A stretch of 23,785 nt of DNA from a virus: positions 1-23,785 of IMG/VR virus record IMGVR_UViG_3300018417_000945. One strand, 5' to 3'. Under the pieces are notes generated by a model. It did not search any database and was not told the DNA's origin. It saw nothing but the letters and a program-made list of their open reading frames with translations. How positions within the stretch are numbered: the first letter of the stretch is position 1; the number at the start of each line of letters is the position of its first letter. This document shows, piece by piece, positions 4,376 through 23,785 of the stretch. The translations under genes were made by a program, and so were the position numbers.

Positions 4376-4768
4376 ATGCGTGAAGGTTATTATGACTACA
4401 TACTTAGACGGTACCGTGAAGAGGAGAATAAGATGAGTTTGAAAAAAGACTATGTTATTGTGGAAACTATATCAAGTTTCAGAATGCGATACGTGATGTC
4501 GATGGAAGAACTTCAGAAGTCAAATCCCGACATGCCTGTTCAAGAAGAGTGGGCATTAGACGCAGTGACTTGTGAAGAGGTAGAAGACTTTTCTCAGAAG
4601 TGGATTGGCGAACATATCATAGATCACCGTGTGATCAGTGAAGATGAAGTAATCGAAGCTTTTGATAGAGATAACGACTATCTTAAAGAATGGCCACGTG
4701 AACAAAAACTTGAACACATTCGATGCTCCCTTAACCATAATAAAAATAATGGAGACATCTATGATTAA
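4376..4768 (+). CDS. Hypothetical protein, first gene after a promoter
   Basis: A 130-residue protein. The ATG at 4376 has AAAGGA five bases upstream and follows the promoter by a short leader. A second in-frame ATG at 4433 (also with a GAGGAG site) gives a 111-residue form starting MSLKKDYVIVETISSF, and the recognisable part begins there: VETISSFRMRYVMSMEEL is a pattern seen in phage proteins with no function. Two translation starts may both be used. The protein is acidic, with no signal or membrane segment. Its end overlaps the glutaredoxin start by 8 bases. Confidence 0.65.
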   Translation: MREGYYDYILRRYREEENKMSLKKDYVIVETISSFRMRYVMSMEELQKSNPDMPVQEEWALDAVTCEEVEDFSQKWIGEHIIDHRVISEDEVIEAFDRDNDYLKEWPREQKLEHIRCSLNHNKNNGDIYD

Positions 4769-5015
4769 AATATACGGCTCATCAAATTGTATTTGGTGTT
4801 TAAAAGCAAAGCAACTATGTGAGAGCATGAACCTAGAACACGACTATATCTTAGTCGATGACATTGGGTTCGATGAGTTCTCAAAGAAATTCCCTAATGT
4901 GAGAACTGTCCCGCAGATAATGTGGGGAGAAGAACACGTTGGTGGATACCAGGAGTTCGCTGTGAAAGTGAATGATTTTATAACTAAAGAAAGTGAGGAA
5001 AATGATAATGACTAG
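4761..5015 (+). CDS. Glutaredoxin
   Basis: An 84-residue protein with the dithiol active site C10-I-W-C13 directly after the first beta-strand (IKIYGSSNC), the cis-proline loop TVPQI (Pro51) and the GG motif (HVGGYQEF), all in the order of the thioredoxin fold. T4-like phages carry such proteins (nrdC in T4) as reductants for ribonucleotide reductase. The usual CPYC is CIWC here. GGAGA lies 5 bases before the ATG. No nrd gene is in the window. It might also reduce the peroxiredoxin at the window's left edge, as Prx5-type enzymes often use glutaredoxin; that is inference. Confidence 0.92.
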   Translation: MIKIYGSSNCIWCLKAKQLCESMNLEHDYILVDDIGFDEFSKKFPNVRTVPQIMWGEEHVGGYQEFAVKVNDFITKESEENDND

Positions 5016-11468: not shown

Positions 11469-14400
11469 ATGAGTGAAAAGTACTACACTGTAGGAACGCA
11501 TACTGCTGAACAATGGTCTGAACTTCACTCAGAACTTATTGCAGACGGAAACGTATATCAAAGTGTGCCTTCTAGACGGGTCACGATAGTCGATGATAAG
11601 TTGCATAGTCCAACTAGAGGAAGTTACTTACTTACTCAACAGGAAGCGAACGAATTAAAGGCCGATGAACGAGTAAAGTTTATCAACCTGAGTCCAGAAA
11701 AATATCCAGATATATTTGAAATTGATCCAGATGAACTTAAGTGTGTTACGAATAATACACTGACAGACAGATGGTCTAATGCTTATAACAACTACCAGTA
11801 TTGGAGTACTTCTTCTTCGAACTTTAATACCAATGAGCCCACGATCAACCGTACTAGTGCATTGTATAGAATGCAGACCAAGCAAAACCCTTGGAAGACT
11901 ACCACTACAGACGAGAACGATGCGATCAGTGCTAAAGTACAGCAAGTCGGTGCGGGCGAGAATGTCGATATCATTTGCGCTGATGAGGGAACTTGGATTG
12001 CACATCCAGAATTCATCAACAGCGGAGTTACTGGTTCAGTAGATCCTACAGACTACGTTGGTGGTAATGTATTACCCGGTAACGGATACTGTGACGTACT
12101 TGATCTAGTATTAGATGCCCCTTATTATATTGATCCAGATTGGTTTAACGCAGATGCCTCTAATAGACTAACGACACGATGGGATGGAACTACTGTTCCC
12201 ATCGAAAGTGTTGCTATAACTTGGTGGAGAAATAGTAGTCAGAGAAGCACTGAGTTTGCGGCGTTTGGCAATATACCAGTAAGAACAACTTATGCTAGAG
12301 ATCTGGTTCACGGATCAAACACAGTCACTCCATGGATTAGAGATATTTCTGTTACGCCAGGAATTCCAGTCCCAGTAAGAAATGCTGATCACGGAACACA
12401 ATGTGCCAGTCTTATCTATGGTCGCACTCATGGATGGGCATACAATGCAAACAAGTGGCATTTAAATTTATATGGAGCTTTTAGTGTAGGCTCTTTTGAA
12501 ATAGGGTTTGATGTTCAAAAGGTGTTTCACCAATATAAACCAACAAATCCTCTATATAACACAAAAGACCCGACAATGAGTTCTAATAGTTGGGGACTTA
12601 GGGCAGAAAAAGAAGGTAGTCATTATTACTTTAGAAGTAATACTCCAGTCGCATATGATTCTTCAACTGTCCCCGAATTCATCAGCTGGTTGGGTGTAAC
12701 GGGTGATGGTGGTCGATGGAAAAGCGAGTTATACGATAACTCTATGACAGTTGCCGGAGATGAACTTATCGAATCCGGAATTATCTTTATTGCCGCCGCT
12801 GGCAACTCCAACCAACAGCAGGTTAATCCAGATCATCCTAATTACGATAATAGAATCAGCAATAACTCTACTAACACATTTTATCAAGACCAATTTGAAG
12901 AGTTGGGTGGATACGAATCAACGGGATCGACTAATCGAAGAGGGTTTCCTCAACACATAGGTAAGACAGAGAGCCAAACTTCTCAAGGAAATACCACAGC
13001 TAAATTTCCTGCTATTCTTATTGGAGCACTAGATGATAATATGGTGCAAAATTACGACCAAGACCAAAAAGTAAATTACAGTGATTGCGGAAATGCCATT
13101 GATTTATTTGCTCCTGGTGATGGAGTATTGGCAGCCGGAAGACCCACATATCAGAATCAGATTTTCAATGGTCAACTTTTATATAATAGGCTGGGATATA
13201 CGAGAGTAGATAACACATACAGCGGATTAAGTGCTGTAGAAAGATATGATTATTATGGTCCAGCGGCAGCGAATAGAACAATTGGTGAAGACGGGCAAGC
13301 AATGCTCGGAGAAACTGAATTCAATAAAACTTTTAGTACAGCTACAGATATTAGATTTAGTGGTACGAGTGCGGCTTGTCCTATCGCTTGTGGATTTTTG
13401 GCACTCGTAATGCAGTATAACAGAGGTTGGGACTATGAAGATTTGCGTAGCTGGATTCAAAATAATGTACAAACTCAGCCGACTGCCGATATGTATGAGG
13501 GCACCGAGTTAACGACCGCTAACGCAAACTGGTCAGGCGATTACAACGCACTGCAAGGAGCTGAAAGACGCATATTGTATCAAGCGACTATTCCCGTCAG
13601 TACAGCATTTCCTACTAGTGCGCCAGCAGACGTGGTTGGACCAGTAATTACTATTGTCGGAGACAATCCAGCCACTGTGGAATTAGGCGCAACATATACC
13701 GATGCGGGAGCAACAGCACTTGATGCAGTTGACGGCAGTGTATCAGTAACTTCCTCTGGAACTGTTGATACGTCAACAGTCGGTGCGTACACTATTACAT
13801 ATACCGCAACAGATGCCGCAGGTAACACGACAACTTCAACTAGAACGGTCAACGTTGTTGATACCACTGCACCGATAATCGATTCAAGTAATATCGTTTC
13901 TTCAGTTAACGAAGGCATCACTTCATTAGGAACTGTTAGTGCAAACGAAACAGTTACTTGGTCCATTTCAGGATCTGGAGTATCAATCAGCACCTCAGGA
14001 GTTGTCACATTAGATAGTCCAGCAGATTATGAAACTGCAACGTCCCATAGCTTTGTAATTACCGCAACAGATGGTGCAGGAAATGCATCAAGCACATCAT
14101 CGATCTCTGTATCAGTGGTTGATTCAGATGATGACGGCAGTGGAGATACTTATGATGGTCCACTTGTTATAAATGTGATATTAGGAACAACAGTTAGTAC
14201 CGCAACTGAAGAAGCTGGAGATGCATTCTTCGGTGGAAATACACAATCTGGTGAAGTTATAAACAGATTGCCTCCAGTTTATGCCAATGACGGATACTCT
14301 GTATCTATCAGCTTTGAGGCACTAGGAGCTGCCAGCGAAACTTGGACAGTCGATAGCATTACAGCTACAGCGAATACATCTTTTAATTATAGTATTTCTT

Positions 14401-14702
14401 CGCCTCAAGCAACTATAACTCAGCAAAATGATCCTTACTCTACAGATTGGACATGCTTGATGGAAGATTACTCTACGCAGATTTTTCCATCTGAGATAGA
14501 TGCCGCAGCCGCAAGCGATCCAGCTTTACTCGAACTTATATCTTTGACGATACCAGATCCAGTCGTAAACGAAGAAACTCATAGTTTTACTATTAATGTG
14601 TCTGAATCTGGTGGTGCTAGTGAAAGCAGATCAATTGATATTGACCAGGCGAAGCACTTTGACGCAACAAGTTTTATAAGTAAAGTACAATCGATTACAT
14701 AG
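11469..14702 (+). CDS. Giant subtilase (S8 family)-like virion-associated protein with Ig-like domains
   Basis: A 1077-residue protein. The S8 protease core spans about 165-660: Asp172 (ICADEGTWIAHPEF), His308 (NADHGTQCASLIYGR), the oxyanion Asn446 (IAAAGNSN) and Ser634 (FSGTSAACP). All four are intact. The Asp-His distance (136 residues) is far longer than in secreted subtilisins. An N-terminal domain of about 160 residues has no signal peptide. After 720 come a DUF5011-like Ig domain (PVITIVGDNPATVELG ... YTATDAAGN), a cadherin-like domain (to about 886) and a C-terminal domain of 180 residues. Similar proteins occur in marine T4-like phages. Placement before PAAR suggests a tail or spike role, which is inference. 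Confidence 0.88.
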   Translation: MSEKYYTVGTHTAEQWSELHSELIADGNVYQSVPSRRVTIVDDKLHSPTRGSYLLTQQEANELKADERVKFINLSPEKYPDIFEIDPDELKCVTNNTLTDRWSNAYNNYQYWSTSSSNFNTNEPTINRTSALYRMQTKQNPWKTTTTDENDAISAKVQQVGAGENVDIICADEGTWIAHPEFINSGVTGSVDPTDYVGGNVLPGNGYCDVLDLVLDAPYYIDPDWFNADASNRLTTRWDGTTVPIESVAITWWRNSSQRSTEFAAFGNIPVRTTYARDLVHGSNTVTPWIRDISVTPGIPVPVRNADHGTQCASLIYGRTHGWAYNANKWHLNLYGAFSVGSFEIGFDVQKVFHQYKPTNPLYNTKDPTMSSNSWGLRAEKEGSHYYFRSNTPVAYDSSTVPEFISWLGVTGDGGRWKSELYDNSMTVAGDELIESGIIFIAAAGNSNQQQVNPDHPNYDNRISNNSTNTFYQDQFEELGGYESTGSTNRRGFPQHIGKTESQTSQGNTTAKFPAILIGALDDNMVQNYDQDQKVNYSDCGNAIDLFAPGDGVLAAGRPTYQNQIFNGQLLYNRLGYTRVDNTYSGLSAVERYDYYGPAAANRTIGEDGQAMLGETEFNKTFSTATDIRFSGTSAACPIACGFLALVMQYNRGWDYEDLRSWIQNNVQTQPTADMYEGTELTTANANWSGDYNALQGAERRILYQATIPVSTAFPTSAPADVVGPVITIVGDNPATVELGATYTDAGATALDAVDGSVSVTSSGTVDTSTVGAYTITYTATDAAGNTTTSTRTVNVVDTTAPIIDSSNIVSSVNEGITSLGTVSANETVTWSISGSGVSISTSGVVTLDSPADYETATSHSFVITATDGAGNASSTSSISVSVVDSDDDGSGDTYDGPLVINVILGTTVSTATEEAGDAFFGGNTQSGEVINRLPPVYANDGYSVSISFEALGAASETWTVDSITATANTSFNYSISSPQATITQQNDPYSTDWTCLMEDYSTQIFPSEIDAAAASDPALLELISLTIPDPVVNEETHSFTINVSESGGASESRSIDIDQAKHFDATSFISKVQSIT

Positions 14703-14712
14703 GAGAAACTTA

Positions 14713-15024
14713 ATGCCAATGGCAGCCAGAAATTTAGACCCAATTTTAACAGGACATCCATGCGATGCTTCGTCTACTATTGTTGCGACTTTAGCAACTG
14801 GTAAGGTTATCATTCAAGGTCAGCCTGCGGCAGTTACTGGCGATGCTATCGCTCCTCATACAATTCTATCTGGTTCTAGTTGCGTACCTCACCCCGCAGT
14901 TACTGGAGTTGGATCAACTAAAGTCCGACTTGGACCAGCATTACTACCTGCGAATAGAGTGGGAGATCCTGCTGATTTGGGAGTAATCATAGGCGGATCA
15001 TCAAAAGTTATCATAGGAGGATAA
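14713..15024 (+). CDS. PAAR-domain spike-tip protein (T4 gp5.4-like)
   Basis: A 103-residue protein made of the PAAR repeat pattern: ARNLDPILTGHPCDAS, VIIQGQPAAVTGDAIAPH, and VIIGGSSKVIIGG at the end. PAAR proteins form a small cone that caps the beta-helical needle of T4-type tails and type VI secretion, with a zinc held near the tip by His and Cys residues; candidates here are His15, Cys17, His49, Cys57 and His60. AGGAG is 7 bases before the ATG. The gene follows the subtilase by 10 bases, so both are expected in the virion. Confidence 0.92.
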   Translation: MPMAARNLDPILTGHPCDASSTIVATLATGKVIIQGQPAAVTGDAIAPHTILSGSSCVPHPAVTGVGSTKVRLGPALLPANRVGDPADLGVIIGGSSKVIIGG

Positions 15025-16320: not shown

Positions 16321-16328
16321 AAAAGTGG

Positions 16329-20588: not shown

Positions 20589-20605
20589 AAAAGTGAAAAT
20601 AATGG

Positions 20606-20633
20606 TTGACATTCTGGTGGATCCTGTTAGGAT
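20606..20633 (+). promoter_or_regulatory. Promoter of the repeated TTGAC/CCTG family
   Basis: TTGACA (20606-20611), a 16-base spacer ending in GGATCCTGT, TAGGAT (20628-20633). It drives the CobT-like gene. The upstream AAAATAATGG is kept. Confidence 0.85.
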
Positions 20634-20657: not shown

Positions 20658-22865
20658 ATGTTTTCACAAAAATCAGTTCTAGCCCGCTTACTCGCTAATG
20701 AGAATATTAGCGTCCAGCAGGGCAATTTTAAGACTGCCTTCTTTGATGTCGAGAATCGTGTTCTCGGTCTTCCTCTCTGGAAAGAGATGTCGGCTGATGT
20801 TTATGATCTTCTCGTAGGTCATGAAGTCGGTCACGCATTATACACACCTTCTGTCGATAAGATCCAGATCAAAGGTGTTCCCTTCGCATACGTTAACGTG
20901 ATTGAAGATATTCGGATTGAGAAGAAAGTTCTCTCCAAGTATCCTGGTCTTGTTAACAATTTCAAGCGTGGGTATAAAGAGTTAGTCGAGATGAATATCT
21001 TCGGCACCAAAGAGAAGGACATTAATGAGATGTCTTTCATGGATCGTCTTAACATCAAAGCCAAAGGTCGTGATCTGGTCGATGTGGAGTTCTCTGAGGA
21101 AGAGCAACCCTATGTCGATATGGCTATGAAGGTCGAGACATTCGAAGATGTTGAGAAAGTTTGCCGTGAGCTGGTTGCTTGGATCGGCGAGAAGTCTGAA
21201 GATCAGCAAGAGCAAGAGTCAGCGATGACTGCCGAGCAAATGCAGGATCTCATTGATCAACTTAAAGATGAAGACCAGACACCACCTCAAAGTGGTGAAG
21301 GTGAGTCAGAAGAATCTGATGAGAATGGTGAGGAGTCTAGCGACTCATCCAGCGACTCAGAAGATGGCGAAGGTGAGGAGTCTAGCGACTCATCCAGCGA
21401 CTCAGAAGAGGGAGATGAAGAGGGCGAAGAAAGTTCTTCTAGCGCCCAAGACACTCCAGCTACCGATGAGTTAGAGTCCGATGATGGCGAAAAGTCTATC
21501 GCTGGCAAAGGGGCTGACGGTGTGCCAGAGGGACTTCCTGAAGTTGAGACTGAGAATGCTCAATCTCAAAACATGGAAACGCTTGTCGATAACATCGGCA
21601 AAGTTTACGTGCAGGGAATGCCACGTGCGGTTTTCGAAATCCTTCGTAACGATTACAAGACAATTTTGGCTGAGCGAGTAAAGCATGACCAAAAGCTGGT
21701 TGAACTGGGTTACGAATTTGATGAGAATCCCGTTGCGTTTTCTACTTTCATGGCTGAGACCAAGCAAGTGGTTAATCTCATGGCTAAAGAATTTGAGATG
21801 CGTAAGGCTGCCTATCGTTCAGTTCGAGCCCGTACTTCGACTAAGGGTTCGCTTGATGTGAACAAGCTTCACTCTTACAAGTATGACGACCAGTTGTTCA
21901 AGCAGGTCACTACTCTTGCCGACGGTAAGAATCATGGAATGATCATGCTGGTTGATTACTCTGGATCAATGTATCATCGTTTGCCTGCGGTAATTCGCCA
22001 GACGATTGCTCTGGTTCAGTTCTGCAAGCGAGTGAACATTCCCTTTGAAGTTTACAGTTTCACTTCTACACGTGGTAGCGTTGATCGAGATGCACTAAAA
22101 GCCGCTTCTAGCAACTTGACCCGATTCGAGTATGATGAACTGGTGTTGAACCAGCTATTCACCAACAAGATGGGCAAGCGTGATTATGATGAGGCACTGA
22201 AGGGCTTCTATGATTCAATCATGAAAGTTCGTTACCTGAACCGATATGAGGCACTGGGAAGCACTCCTTTGAACTCTGCTCTTCTAGCCTGTGAGCATAT
22301 CATCAAAGATTTTCGAAAGAACAATCCAGTTCATAAACTGAACCTGATTACTCTGACTGATGGTCACTCAGATGCCGCTAGTATGGTTTACGGGGCTGAT
22401 TATGATCCATATAATTCAGCCGGTCAACGTCAACGTCAGCTAATTATTCCAGTGAACGGAAAGAATGTCACTCTTGAATATGGGTGGGGTCGATACCGTG
22501 AGCAAACTGCCGCACTTCTGAAAGCGATTTCTGGCAATGATATCACCACTGCAAACTTCTTTATCTGTGACCGTCGTGATTTTCGATCTGAACAGTATGC
22601 AATACTTGCTTGGGATCACGCCGCTCAAAAGAAAGCAAAAAGTGATATGTCAAAGAACGGTGTTTGGATTGTCGAGAACGACTCAGGTTATGATCGCCGA
22701 TTCATTATGCTGGACAAGTCTGCTTCTATGTCAGGTGAGACTGATGAACTTGAAATTGACTCAAGTGCAACCCCAGCCCAGATCGCCCGTGCCTTCAAAA
22801 AGCACAGTGGATCTAAGAAAGGCAACCGAGTTGTTACTCAGAAATTTGCAGAATTAGTTGCCTAA
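20658..22865 (+). CDS. CobT-like protein: HExxH metalloprotease-like domain plus VWA domain
   Basis: A 735-residue protein starting at ATG 20658 (AAGGAG six bases upstream). The N-terminal domain has the zinc motif HEVGH (55-59) and VIEDIRIEKK (81-90), with Glu83 as possible third ligand. An acidic, Ser/Asp/Glu-rich linker (about 205-275) follows. The C-terminal VWA domain has the MIDAS motif DYSGS (433-437) and TLTDGHSD (around 568). Marine T4-like phages have such proteins under the name CobT, from the VWA subunit of cobaltochelatase. The HExxH domain and phage context make a cobalt-insertion role doubtful. It likely works with the CobS-like AAA+ protein that starts at 23249. Confidence 0.85.
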   Translation: MFSQKSVLARLLANENISVQQGNFKTAFFDVENRVLGLPLWKEMSADVYDLLVGHEVGHALYTPSVDKIQIKGVPFAYVNVIEDIRIEKKVLSKYPGLVNNFKRGYKELVEMNIFGTKEKDINEMSFMDRLNIKAKGRDLVDVEFSEEEQPYVDMAMKVETFEDVEKVCRELVAWIGEKSEDQQEQESAMTAEQMQDLIDQLKDEDQTPPQSGEGESEESDENGEESSDSSSDSEDGEGEESSDSSSDSEEGDEEGEESSSSAQDTPATDELESDDGEKSIAGKGADGVPEGLPEVETENAQSQNMETLVDNIGKVYVQGMPRAVFEILRNDYKTILAERVKHDQKLVELGYEFDENPVAFSTFMAETKQVVNLMAKEFEMRKAAYRSVRARTSTKGSLDVNKLHSYKYDDQLFKQVTTLADGKNHGMIMLVDYSGSMYHRLPAVIRQTIALVQFCKRVNIPFEVYSFTSTRGSVDRDALKAASSNLTRFEYDELVLNQLFTNKMGKRDYDEALKGFYDSIMKVRYLNRYEALGSTPLNSALLACEHIIKDFRKNNPVHKLNLITLTDGHSDAASMVYGADYDPYNSAGQRQRQLIIPVNGKNVTLEYGWGRYREQTAALLKAISGNDITTANFFICDRRDFRSEQYAILAWDHAAQKKAKSDMSKNGVWIVENDSGYDRRFIMLDKSASMSGETDELEIDSSATPAQIARAFKKHSGSKKGNRVVTQKFAELVA
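21327..21409 (+). repeat. 45-base tandem duplication inside the acidic linker
   Basis: A 38-base block at 21327-21364 recurs without change at 21372-21409, a period of 45 bases or 15 codons. It encodes GEESSDSSSDSE twice. Perfect copying at third codon positions shows that the duplication is recent. Confidence 0.9.
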
Positions 22866-22880
22866 AATTGAAATTAGGGG

Positions 22881-22908
22881 TTGACTTACGGGTCAATCCT
22901 GCTAAAAT
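22881..22908 (+). promoter_or_regulatory. Promoter of the repeated TTGAC/CCTG family
   Basis: TTGACT (22881-22886), a 16-base spacer ending in CCTGC, TAAAAT (22903-22908) with extended -10 TG, and then ATAAT. It lies in the gap after the CobT-like gene and drives the small gene at 22945. Confidence 0.8.
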
Positions 22909-22944
22909 ATAATCTGAAATTGAGTTAAACCTTTGGAGATGAAA

Positions 22945-23181
22945 ATGCAAAAAGTTCAGGAAAAAATGCAAGCGATCAGTGCCGCTCAGAATGCCTTCGC
23001 TACTATAGAAAGTATTCGACCAGGTGCAATACCTCAAGAAACTAAGGTGCTGTTAGCCGAACTGAAAGTCGATCTAATGGATATACAAGATGCCCAAGAA
23101 GAGCAAAACTCTTCTGGTCCGTTTGGAGAAATGAACAATTTAGTTGAAAATTTCTTTGAAAATAATGCATTTAAAGGTTGA
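22945..23181 (+). CDS. Small helical hypothetical protein between the CobT-like and CobS-like genes
   Basis: A 78-residue protein, mostly helical (QKVQEKMQAISAAQNAFATIESI, then VLLAELKVDLMDIQDAQEEQN), ending in a phenylalanine- and asparagine-rich tail. I chose ATG 22945, six bases after GGAG; the ATG at 22939 touches that site. It has its own promoter, and its TGA stop is part of the next promoter's -35. Placed between the VWA and AAA+ genes, it could be a partner or adaptor, but the separate promoters weaken this. Family unknown. Confidence 0.65.
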   Translation: MQKVQEKMQAISAAQNAFATIESIRPGAIPQETKVLLAELKVDLMDIQDAQEEQNSSGPFGEMNNLVENFFENNAFKG

Positions 23182-23205
23182 CATTGTGGTCCAACCTGCT
23201 ATACT
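23178..23205 (+). promoter_or_regulatory. Promoter of the repeated TTGAC/CCTG family, -35 overlapping a stop codon
   Basis: TTGACA (23178-23183) includes the TGA stop (23179-23181) of the preceding gene. The 16-base spacer ends in CCTGC, and TATACT (23200-23205) is the -10. It drives the CobS-like gene. Confidence 0.85.
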
Positions 23206-23248
23206 ACTTGTATAGATTGAGATAAACCAAGTGACTGGAGACTATATT

Positions 23249-23785
23249 ATGATGAATTTATCCGAAACCCAAGCCAATCTTCTTGACTCGTTTGTAGCGG
23301 CTCACGAAGGTAAGGCTTCTTTTGAGCGCCAAGAGATGTTTACTTTTGCCGAAGAGAATGGCTTTAGTGGCTCTGCCGCTTACACTCTCATGAAACAACT
23401 CCCTCGCATCGGTCGTGGTATTTACCAGATGATCGGCTCGGGAAATGTTGTTCCCATGACACCCCAAGTATCGCCGCAAGCGATACCTCAGCAACCCGCA
23501 CCAGCCGCACCTGTTGCCGCTGTCGGTAAAGTGCAGTCTACCTCTTCTGAGGAAGTCTACGTGCCTAGTGCTGATTCTACGTTTGTGAAGTGGGGTTATT
23601 TCACTGACGTTAAGAAGATCATTCAAAGCCAGCTGTTCTATCCCATGTACGTTGCCGGTCTCTCTGGTAACGGTAAGACGATGATGATCGAACAAGCCTG
23701 CGCTACCCTCAAGCGTGAATACGTCCGTGTTCAGATTACGCCTGAGACTGATGAGGATGATCTGATCGGTGGATTCCGCTTGCTG
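23249..23785 (+). CDS. CobS/MoxR-like AAA+ ATPase, N-terminal part cut by the window edge
   Basis: The frame is open to the end of the window (179 residues). An N-terminal helical domain (1-65; DSFVAAHEGKASFERQEMF, then YTLMKQLPRIGRGIY) looks like a winged-helix or small binding domain. A Pro/Ala/Gln-rich linker follows (70-92), and the AAA+ core begins near 115: PMYVAGLSGNGKT holds the P-loop (137-144), then PETDEDDLIGGFRLL, as in CobS and other MoxR ATPases. Walker B and the arginine finger lie outside. GGAG is 8 bases before the ATG. MoxR ATPases usually work with VWA proteins, such as the one encoded just upstream. Confidence 0.88.
   Translation, partial: MMNLSETQANLLDSFVAAHEGKASFERQEMFTFAEENGFSGSAAYTLMKQLPRIGRGIYQMIGSGNVVPMTPQVSPQAIPQQPAPAAPVAAVGKVQSTSSEEVYVPSADSTFVKWGYFTDVKKIIQSQLFYPMYVAGLSGNGKTMMIEQACATLKREYVRVQITPETDEDDLIGGFRLL

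Follow-up and report, generated by a model that had tools for sequence, protein, structure and literature searches.

In NorQD complexes, a finger of the VWA domain inserts into the pore of the ATPase ring, the N-terminal domain contacts the side of the ring and the linker is stretched by ATP turnover (PMC13036017; PMC9976466); NorQD inserts iron (PMC13036017). For viruses, the published reading is that cobST belongs to the core genes of cyanophages, that cobT was "mistakenly annotated as a peptidase", and that viral CobST hijacks the host CobN (2021, PMC8651126). Here we analysed such a gene pair in a virus record of 23,785 bases (IMG/VR IMGVR_UViG_3300018417_000945, positions 1 to 23,785), the whole of which is hereafter called the window. 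The pair consists of a protein joining a protease-like domain to a VWA domain (protease-VWA protein) and a MoxR/CobS/CbbQ-type AAA+ ATPase. With a probability of roughly 55%, we interpret it as a two-gene MoxR-type AAA+/VWA remodeller that carries an intact gluzincin-like metallopeptidase domain and probably acts on replication proteins.

Architecture and conservation of the protease-VWA/ATPase pair

An initial annotation of the window had described a CobT-like protein in which an HEVGH domain is coupled to an acidic linker and to a VWA domain whose metal ion-dependent adhesion site (MIDAS) is intact. All of these were located in one open reading frame (ORF) (Table 1), with the MIDAS motifs DYSGS, GSTPL and TDG, and the numbering given for the candidate zinc ligands, His55, His59 and Glu83, was correct; this architecture is directly established. 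The protein matched the PHROG 459 profile in full length (E 5.6e-177, residues 4-735 of 735), and is therefore a member of a known gene family that is here substantially reinterpreted, the family itself not being new. The complete ATPase (P0002, 403 residues) was taken from the near-identical contig L002, whose protease-VWA protein is 100% identical to that of the window by tblastn. It matched AAA_5 and CbbQ_C, with sequence matches to the structures of midasin, CobS, NorQ and CbbQ, and its intact Walker A/B, sensor 1 and arginine finger were conserved at 97% or more in 91 homologues.

Through a Foldseek search with the VWA domain, the nearest AAA+-linked structures were found to be NorD in NorQD complexes and the MIDAS domain of Rea1/MDN1. 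The VWA model contains a beta-hairpin insert (residues 594-607) after the MIDAS aspartate, and the order of N-terminal domain, disordered linker and VWA domain is the same as in NorD. An AAA_5/CbbQ-like ATPase with intact catalytic motifs and an adjacent VWA partner with the MIDAS DxSxS-T-D, both of which characterize a MoxR-type pair, were thus found together, and we consider it highly probable that the pair is a MoxR/VWA-like machine.

The AlphaFold2 model of the N-terminal domain (pLDDT 90.1, pTM 0.85) comprises a three-strand sheet, the HExxH helix (residues 46-62) and a glutamate helix (residues 76-94), so that E83 is placed on the helix following HExxH. The gluzincin signature, HExxH plus a glutamate on the following helix, was present in all 106 homologues that have the N-terminal region, with the model placing the helix. 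By Foldseek, the top PDB fold matches were selecase, ArdC, abylysin, M61 and IrrE/PprI (weak, E 0.1-3), all of which we take to be HExxH proteins, and in BFVD the same domain was found in further CobT-like proteins of phages and haloviruses. A PDB sequence search returned no true relative of P0001, A2 or A4, the fold search alone being informative, and a Pfam scan of 60 N-terminal domains gave nothing consistent. The fold class is a predicted one, and sequence and model together favour, by a modest degree, a functional metallopeptidase; zinc binding and proteolysis by this domain are plausible.

At least 588 relatives of the protease-VWA protein were obtained from an IMG/VR scan. Cyanomyoviruses account for nearly all of the 463 phage records in the family, which also include pelagiphages, and the records by host label (365 Synechococcus, 61 Cyanophage and 24 Prochlorococcus) were identical in number for the CobS-like ATPase. 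The ATPase lay downstream on the same strand in 102 of 116 loci, and 12 of the 14 others end less than 450 bases from the gene. H55, E56, H59, N80, E83, D84 and R86 were invariant in 106/106 homologues having the N-terminal region, as were the MIDAS residues in 113/113, which is directly established. Since the homologues compared share about 30-60% identity with the window protein, complete retention of the zinc and MIDAS residues indicates conservation beyond chance. The scan patterns that collected them did not include HExxH, whereas EDxRI was part of one pattern, and its conservation was therefore slightly favoured by the search. Among 13 distant phage CobT-like proteins, HExxH was retained in ten, from phages of Klebsiella, E. 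coli, Salmonella, Rhizobium, Roseobacter, Vibrio, Tsukamurella, Gordonia (two) and Ochrobactrum. The pair is present in phages of alpha- and gammaproteobacteria, cyanobacteria and actinobacteria.

As the initial annotation had proposed, the ATPase has its own promoter, a copy of a phage repeat. The repeat (GTTGACN5GGTNNANCCTGNTA) occurs five times in the window against 0 expected from 100 shuffles, at 16328, 20346, 20605, 22880 and 23177, all on the + strand and with TTGAC-N16-TATANT spacing. Three of the five copies directly precede the protease-VWA gene, a small ORF and the ATPase, respectively.

Table 1. Positions in the window of the protease-VWA/ATPase locus and its parts
Feature	Position	Strand	Details
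Protease-VWA protein, PHROG 459 "peptidase"	20658..22865	+	735 residues from ATG
N-terminal zincin-like domain, residues 1-180	20658..21197	+	AlphaFold2 pLDDT 90.1, pTM 0.85; Foldseek to gluzincins
HEVGH (H55, E56, H59; residues 55-59), putative zinc site and general base	20820..20834	+	H, E, H invariant 106/106
E83-D84 in NVIEDIRIE, putative third zinc ligand and partner	20904..20909	+	Invariant 106/106; next helix in model
Acidic D/E/S-rich linker, residues ~180-300, predicted disordered	21195..21557	+	pLDDT < 50 at 185-287
VWA domain	21927..22712	+	MIDAS 113/113 conserved; Foldseek to NorD VWA and Rea1/MDN1 MIDAS
MIDAS D433-x-S435-x-S437	21954-21968	+	Complete set with T536 and D568
MIDAS T536	22263-22265	+	113/113 conserved
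MIDAS D568	22359-22361	+	113/113 conserved
Small ORF between protease-VWA and ATPase genes	22939/22945-23181	+	~80 residues; own promoter copy at 22880
MoxR/CobS/CbbQ-type AAA+ ATPase, 5' part only	23249..23785	+	Walker A present; ATG 23249, continues past window end
Phage promoter 5' of protease-VWA gene	20605..20633	+	Repeat copy
Phage promoter 5' of small ORF	22880..22908	+	Repeat copy
Phage promoter 5' of ATPase	23177..23205	+	Repeat copy; TTGACA-N16-TATACT at 23178-23205

Cobaltochelatase, CobN and cellular CobST

In the reading of Liu et al. (2021, PMC8651126), and in line with the general annotation of cobS as an auxiliary metabolic gene, the phage CobST replaces or boosts CobS and CobT of the cobaltochelatase, hijacks the host CobN and raises the cobalamin supply. 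Distant homology does connect the pair to CobS (65 bits to TIGR01650) and, around EDxRIE/EQARVE by hhalign, to CobT; the PHROG labels likewise speak for this reading, and, judging by the S. elongatus control, Synechococcus hosts possess a CobN-family protein. However, three phage ATPases far missed the CobS equivalog cut-off of 558.6 (TIGR01650), with 65, 61 and 77 bits, and the phage protein gave no match to the CobT equivalog TIGR01651, for which a genuine CobT scored 953 against a cut-off of 759, and reached 17.4 bits for Pfam CobT (PF06213), under the gathering score of 26.1. CobN (PF02514) was not found in 13 pair-bearing records (ten phage records and three contigs), with controls behaving as expected, nor in 12 further pair-bearing phage records, 25 in total, so that its absence from these records is directly established. 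Hosts of pair-bearing phages also lack CobN: Mosig and HTVC008M are pair-bearing pelagiphages and CobN was found in 0/149 Pelagibacter genomes, while another pair-bearing phage, PhiR41_1, infects E. coli MG1655 and CobN was not detected in the E. coli control genome. In addition, 14/14 large phages tested encode the small subunit of the B12-independent class I ribonucleotide reductase (RNR), and in no case was the NrdJ cut-off reached; the rationale of extra B12 for a class II RNR therefore fails in the phages tested. Finally, chelation offers no role for the invariant HExxH, and genuine CobT is without this motif, having HHDxxxH-like or HNPRIH sequences at this position.

Based on the absence of CobN, the class I RNR, the failed equivalog scores and the conservation of HExxH, the cobalt chelatase was rejected; the pair is, in all likelihood, not a chelatase, and the vitamin-B12 label should be dropped, the proposal of a boosted cobalamin supply being very improbable. 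This agrees with the initial annotation, which had argued against a chelatase and held that true CobT needs no zinc protease site: in the searches above, pair-bearing phages had no CobN and HExxH was not lost in most relatives. A cellular HExxH/VWA protein (P0003), called CobT by Pfam, links the phage protein and CobT, and by this sequence link the N-terminal domain of genuine CobT looks like a degenerate relative of the phage zincin domain, a direction of change that we infer.

Among 144 Alphaproteobacteria, CobT was found in 114, CobN/ChlH in 60 and CobT without CobN/ChlH in 56, a count that is conservative since PF02514 also detects ChlH/BchH, and that genome incompleteness could inflate. 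Pelagibacter ubique (L178) has adjacent genes for a cobS-like ATPase and CobT and no CobN, and the Caulobacter control likewise has CobT without CobN. This occurrence of CobT without CobN in many Alphaproteobacteria indicates that CobST probably fulfils a function that does not depend on cobalamin in cells as well. An alphaproteobacterial HExxH-VWA protein (L189:1314-3035, - strand) has a Pfam CobT match, is the second CobT-family match of its genome and possibly lies on a mobile element.

Genomic neighbourhood, proposed mechanism and alternative functions

In Kyanoviridae, the gene order is gp55-gp47-gp46-[protease-VWA]-[ATPase]-gp45-gp44-gp62-RegA. Counting loci with enough sequence, gp46/47 lay upstream in 58/72 and the clamp or its loader (gp45/44/62) downstream in 57/70. 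In SSU5-like phages and their relatives, the pair lies ahead of DNA polymerase III alpha, with ligase or primase close by, and in an ICP2-like Vibrio phage it lies ahead of primase and polymerase. This neighbourhood in the relatives is directly established; a replication-linked target for the pair is a tentative suggestion from it, which we hold with less than even confidence.

By analogy with NorQD and midasin, the ATPase would assemble into a ring on which the VWA domain docks, its MIDAS metal gripping an acidic residue of the target, and ATP cycles would tug the flexible acidic linker that joins the VWA and N-terminal domains. The zincin domain, being on the same subunit as the VWA domain, may then cleave or otherwise process the exposed target, for which a part of the phage apparatus for DNA replication, recombination or late transcription is the likeliest candidate. 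The initial annotation had envisaged a machine that binds a target by VWA, remodels it and cuts it; its MoxR/VWA-type architecture with a protease-like domain was upheld, while cutting is plausible.

Several points weigh against a remodelling protease acting on replication proteins. The PDB fold matches of the N-terminal domain are weak (E 0.1-3), and this domain could bind a metal for insertion rather than cut. HExxH is gone, with the pair and MIDAS kept, in two proteins of Pseudomonas Nickievirus phages and in that of Stenotrophomonas phage ANB28, so that cleavage cannot be essential everywhere. In the window lineage, the pair no longer lies beside the clamp genes (gp45 is ~60 kb away in G001), phages of Roseobacter, Gordonia and Tsukamurella have no replication neighbours nearby, and synteny inside one phage family reflects one ancestor.

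A metal-insertion chaperone is one alternative, in which the HExxH-E site delivers a metal and the ring opens a phage metalloenzyme, either class I RNR or a nearby 2-oxoglutarate (2OG)-Fe(II) oxygenase. NorQD, the nearest structural analogue of the VWA domain and an iron inserter (PMC13036017), the 2OG-Fe(II) oxygenase genes that Mosig, HTVC008M and S-SCSM1 have close to the pair, and the class I RNR of the 14 large phages all fit it. Nevertheless, NrdB is missing in 4/7 further pair-bearing phages (one a partial genome), by which RNR maturation was rejected as a universal role, no single co-occurring metalloenzyme was found, though the co-occurrence of oxygenases was not counted, and the invariant E56 is a signature of catalysis and not of storage; we consider this alternative unlikely. 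Less likely again is a pure remodeller, whose zincin domain would be only a binding module and which would assemble or disassemble a phage complex without cutting: two distant lineages dropped HExxH yet kept the pair and MIDAS, and genuine CobT appears to carry this domain in degenerate form, but 106/106 close relatives keep every zincin residue, the glutamate base included. The host-takeover protease favoured by the initial annotation, which would be a novel means of disarming the defence or the proteins of the host, draws on the protease-like domain in a phage and on the antirestriction protein ArdC among the weak fold matches, and is the alternative to which we give least credence. Almost every cyanomyovirus has the pair, which is embedded in a conserved gene set, among genes for replication, recombination and late transcription, rather than in a variable region; it recurs in phages of four bacterial groups, and nothing points to a host target. 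An anti-defence role was rejected on this core replication location and on the lack of any PADLOC match.

The remodelling protease can be extended to a wider proposal that we regard as rather doubtful: the pair would represent an unrecognised type of ATP-dependent protease across tailed viruses, with the peptidase on the VWA substrate-adaptor and not in a chamber under the ring, and would process the machinery of phage replication or late transcription; cellular CobT would derive from the same subunit by loss of the protease site, and CobST would serve a cobalamin-independent role in many Alphaproteobacteria. cobS and cobT belong to the core gene set of abundant ocean phages and are routinely counted as viral B12-boosting auxiliary metabolic genes. 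If the pair is a protein-remodelling protease, the ecological claims about B12 have to be revised, and experiments can address a conserved phage machine directly; E. coli K-12, the host of a pair-bearing phage and itself without CobN, is one suitable strain.

Other genes were recorded around the pair and elsewhere in the window. Downstream of the ATPase, a curli-type operon (CsgG, two curlin-repeat proteins and FecR) followed by a CHASE2-adenylate cyclase was observed in two contigs of the window lineage (L002:7619-13670 and L003:16030-22029; Pfam-confirmed in L002), which is odd for a phage. The ORF directly downstream of the ATPase at L003:13796-14197 looks by eye like an IscU/NifU-type Fe-S scaffold. 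The window itself encodes a 1077-residue S8 subtilase with Ig-like/cadherin repeats (11469-15024), directly followed by a weak PAAR-motif protein (under the Pfam cut-off), as well as a cytochrome c domain protein (219-536) and a glutaredoxin (4662-5015), both above their Pfam cut-offs.

Comparison with known systems

The closest relatives are the PHROG 459 and PHROG 249 (CobS-like) pairs of T4-like marine phages, with full-length homology, the same pairing and the same order, whereas the window lineage has left the gp46-gp45 cluster. A literature search found no paper that treats phage, MoxR, VWA and CobS together. The cobaltochelatase CobS/CobT shares the gene-pair layout and distant homology of the ATPase and the N-terminal domain, but genuine CobT is without HExxH, carries a KENIDGEA signature where the phage protein has GxTPL, and acts together with CobN. 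With NorQ-NorD and CbbQ-CbbO, the phage pair shares an AAA+ ATPase with CbbQ_C, a VWA domain with MIDAS, and an N-terminal domain plus disordered linker, at very low sequence identity; beside NorD and CbbO, a zincin-like N-terminal domain with intact HExxH is known here for the phage side only. Midasin/Rea1 has AAA_5 modules and a MIDAS fold that the phage pair matches, and a D/E-rich linker before the MIDAS domain as in the phage protein, but it is one giant chain, while the phage pair consists of two small genes with an extra zincin domain. The gluzincins selecase/abylysin, ArdC and IrrE/PprI resemble the phage N-terminal domain in the order of a predicted HExxH helix and then a helix with the third-ligand glutamate, although this fold likeness is weak, and to our knowledge no gluzincin has been found joined to a VWA/AAA+ pair.

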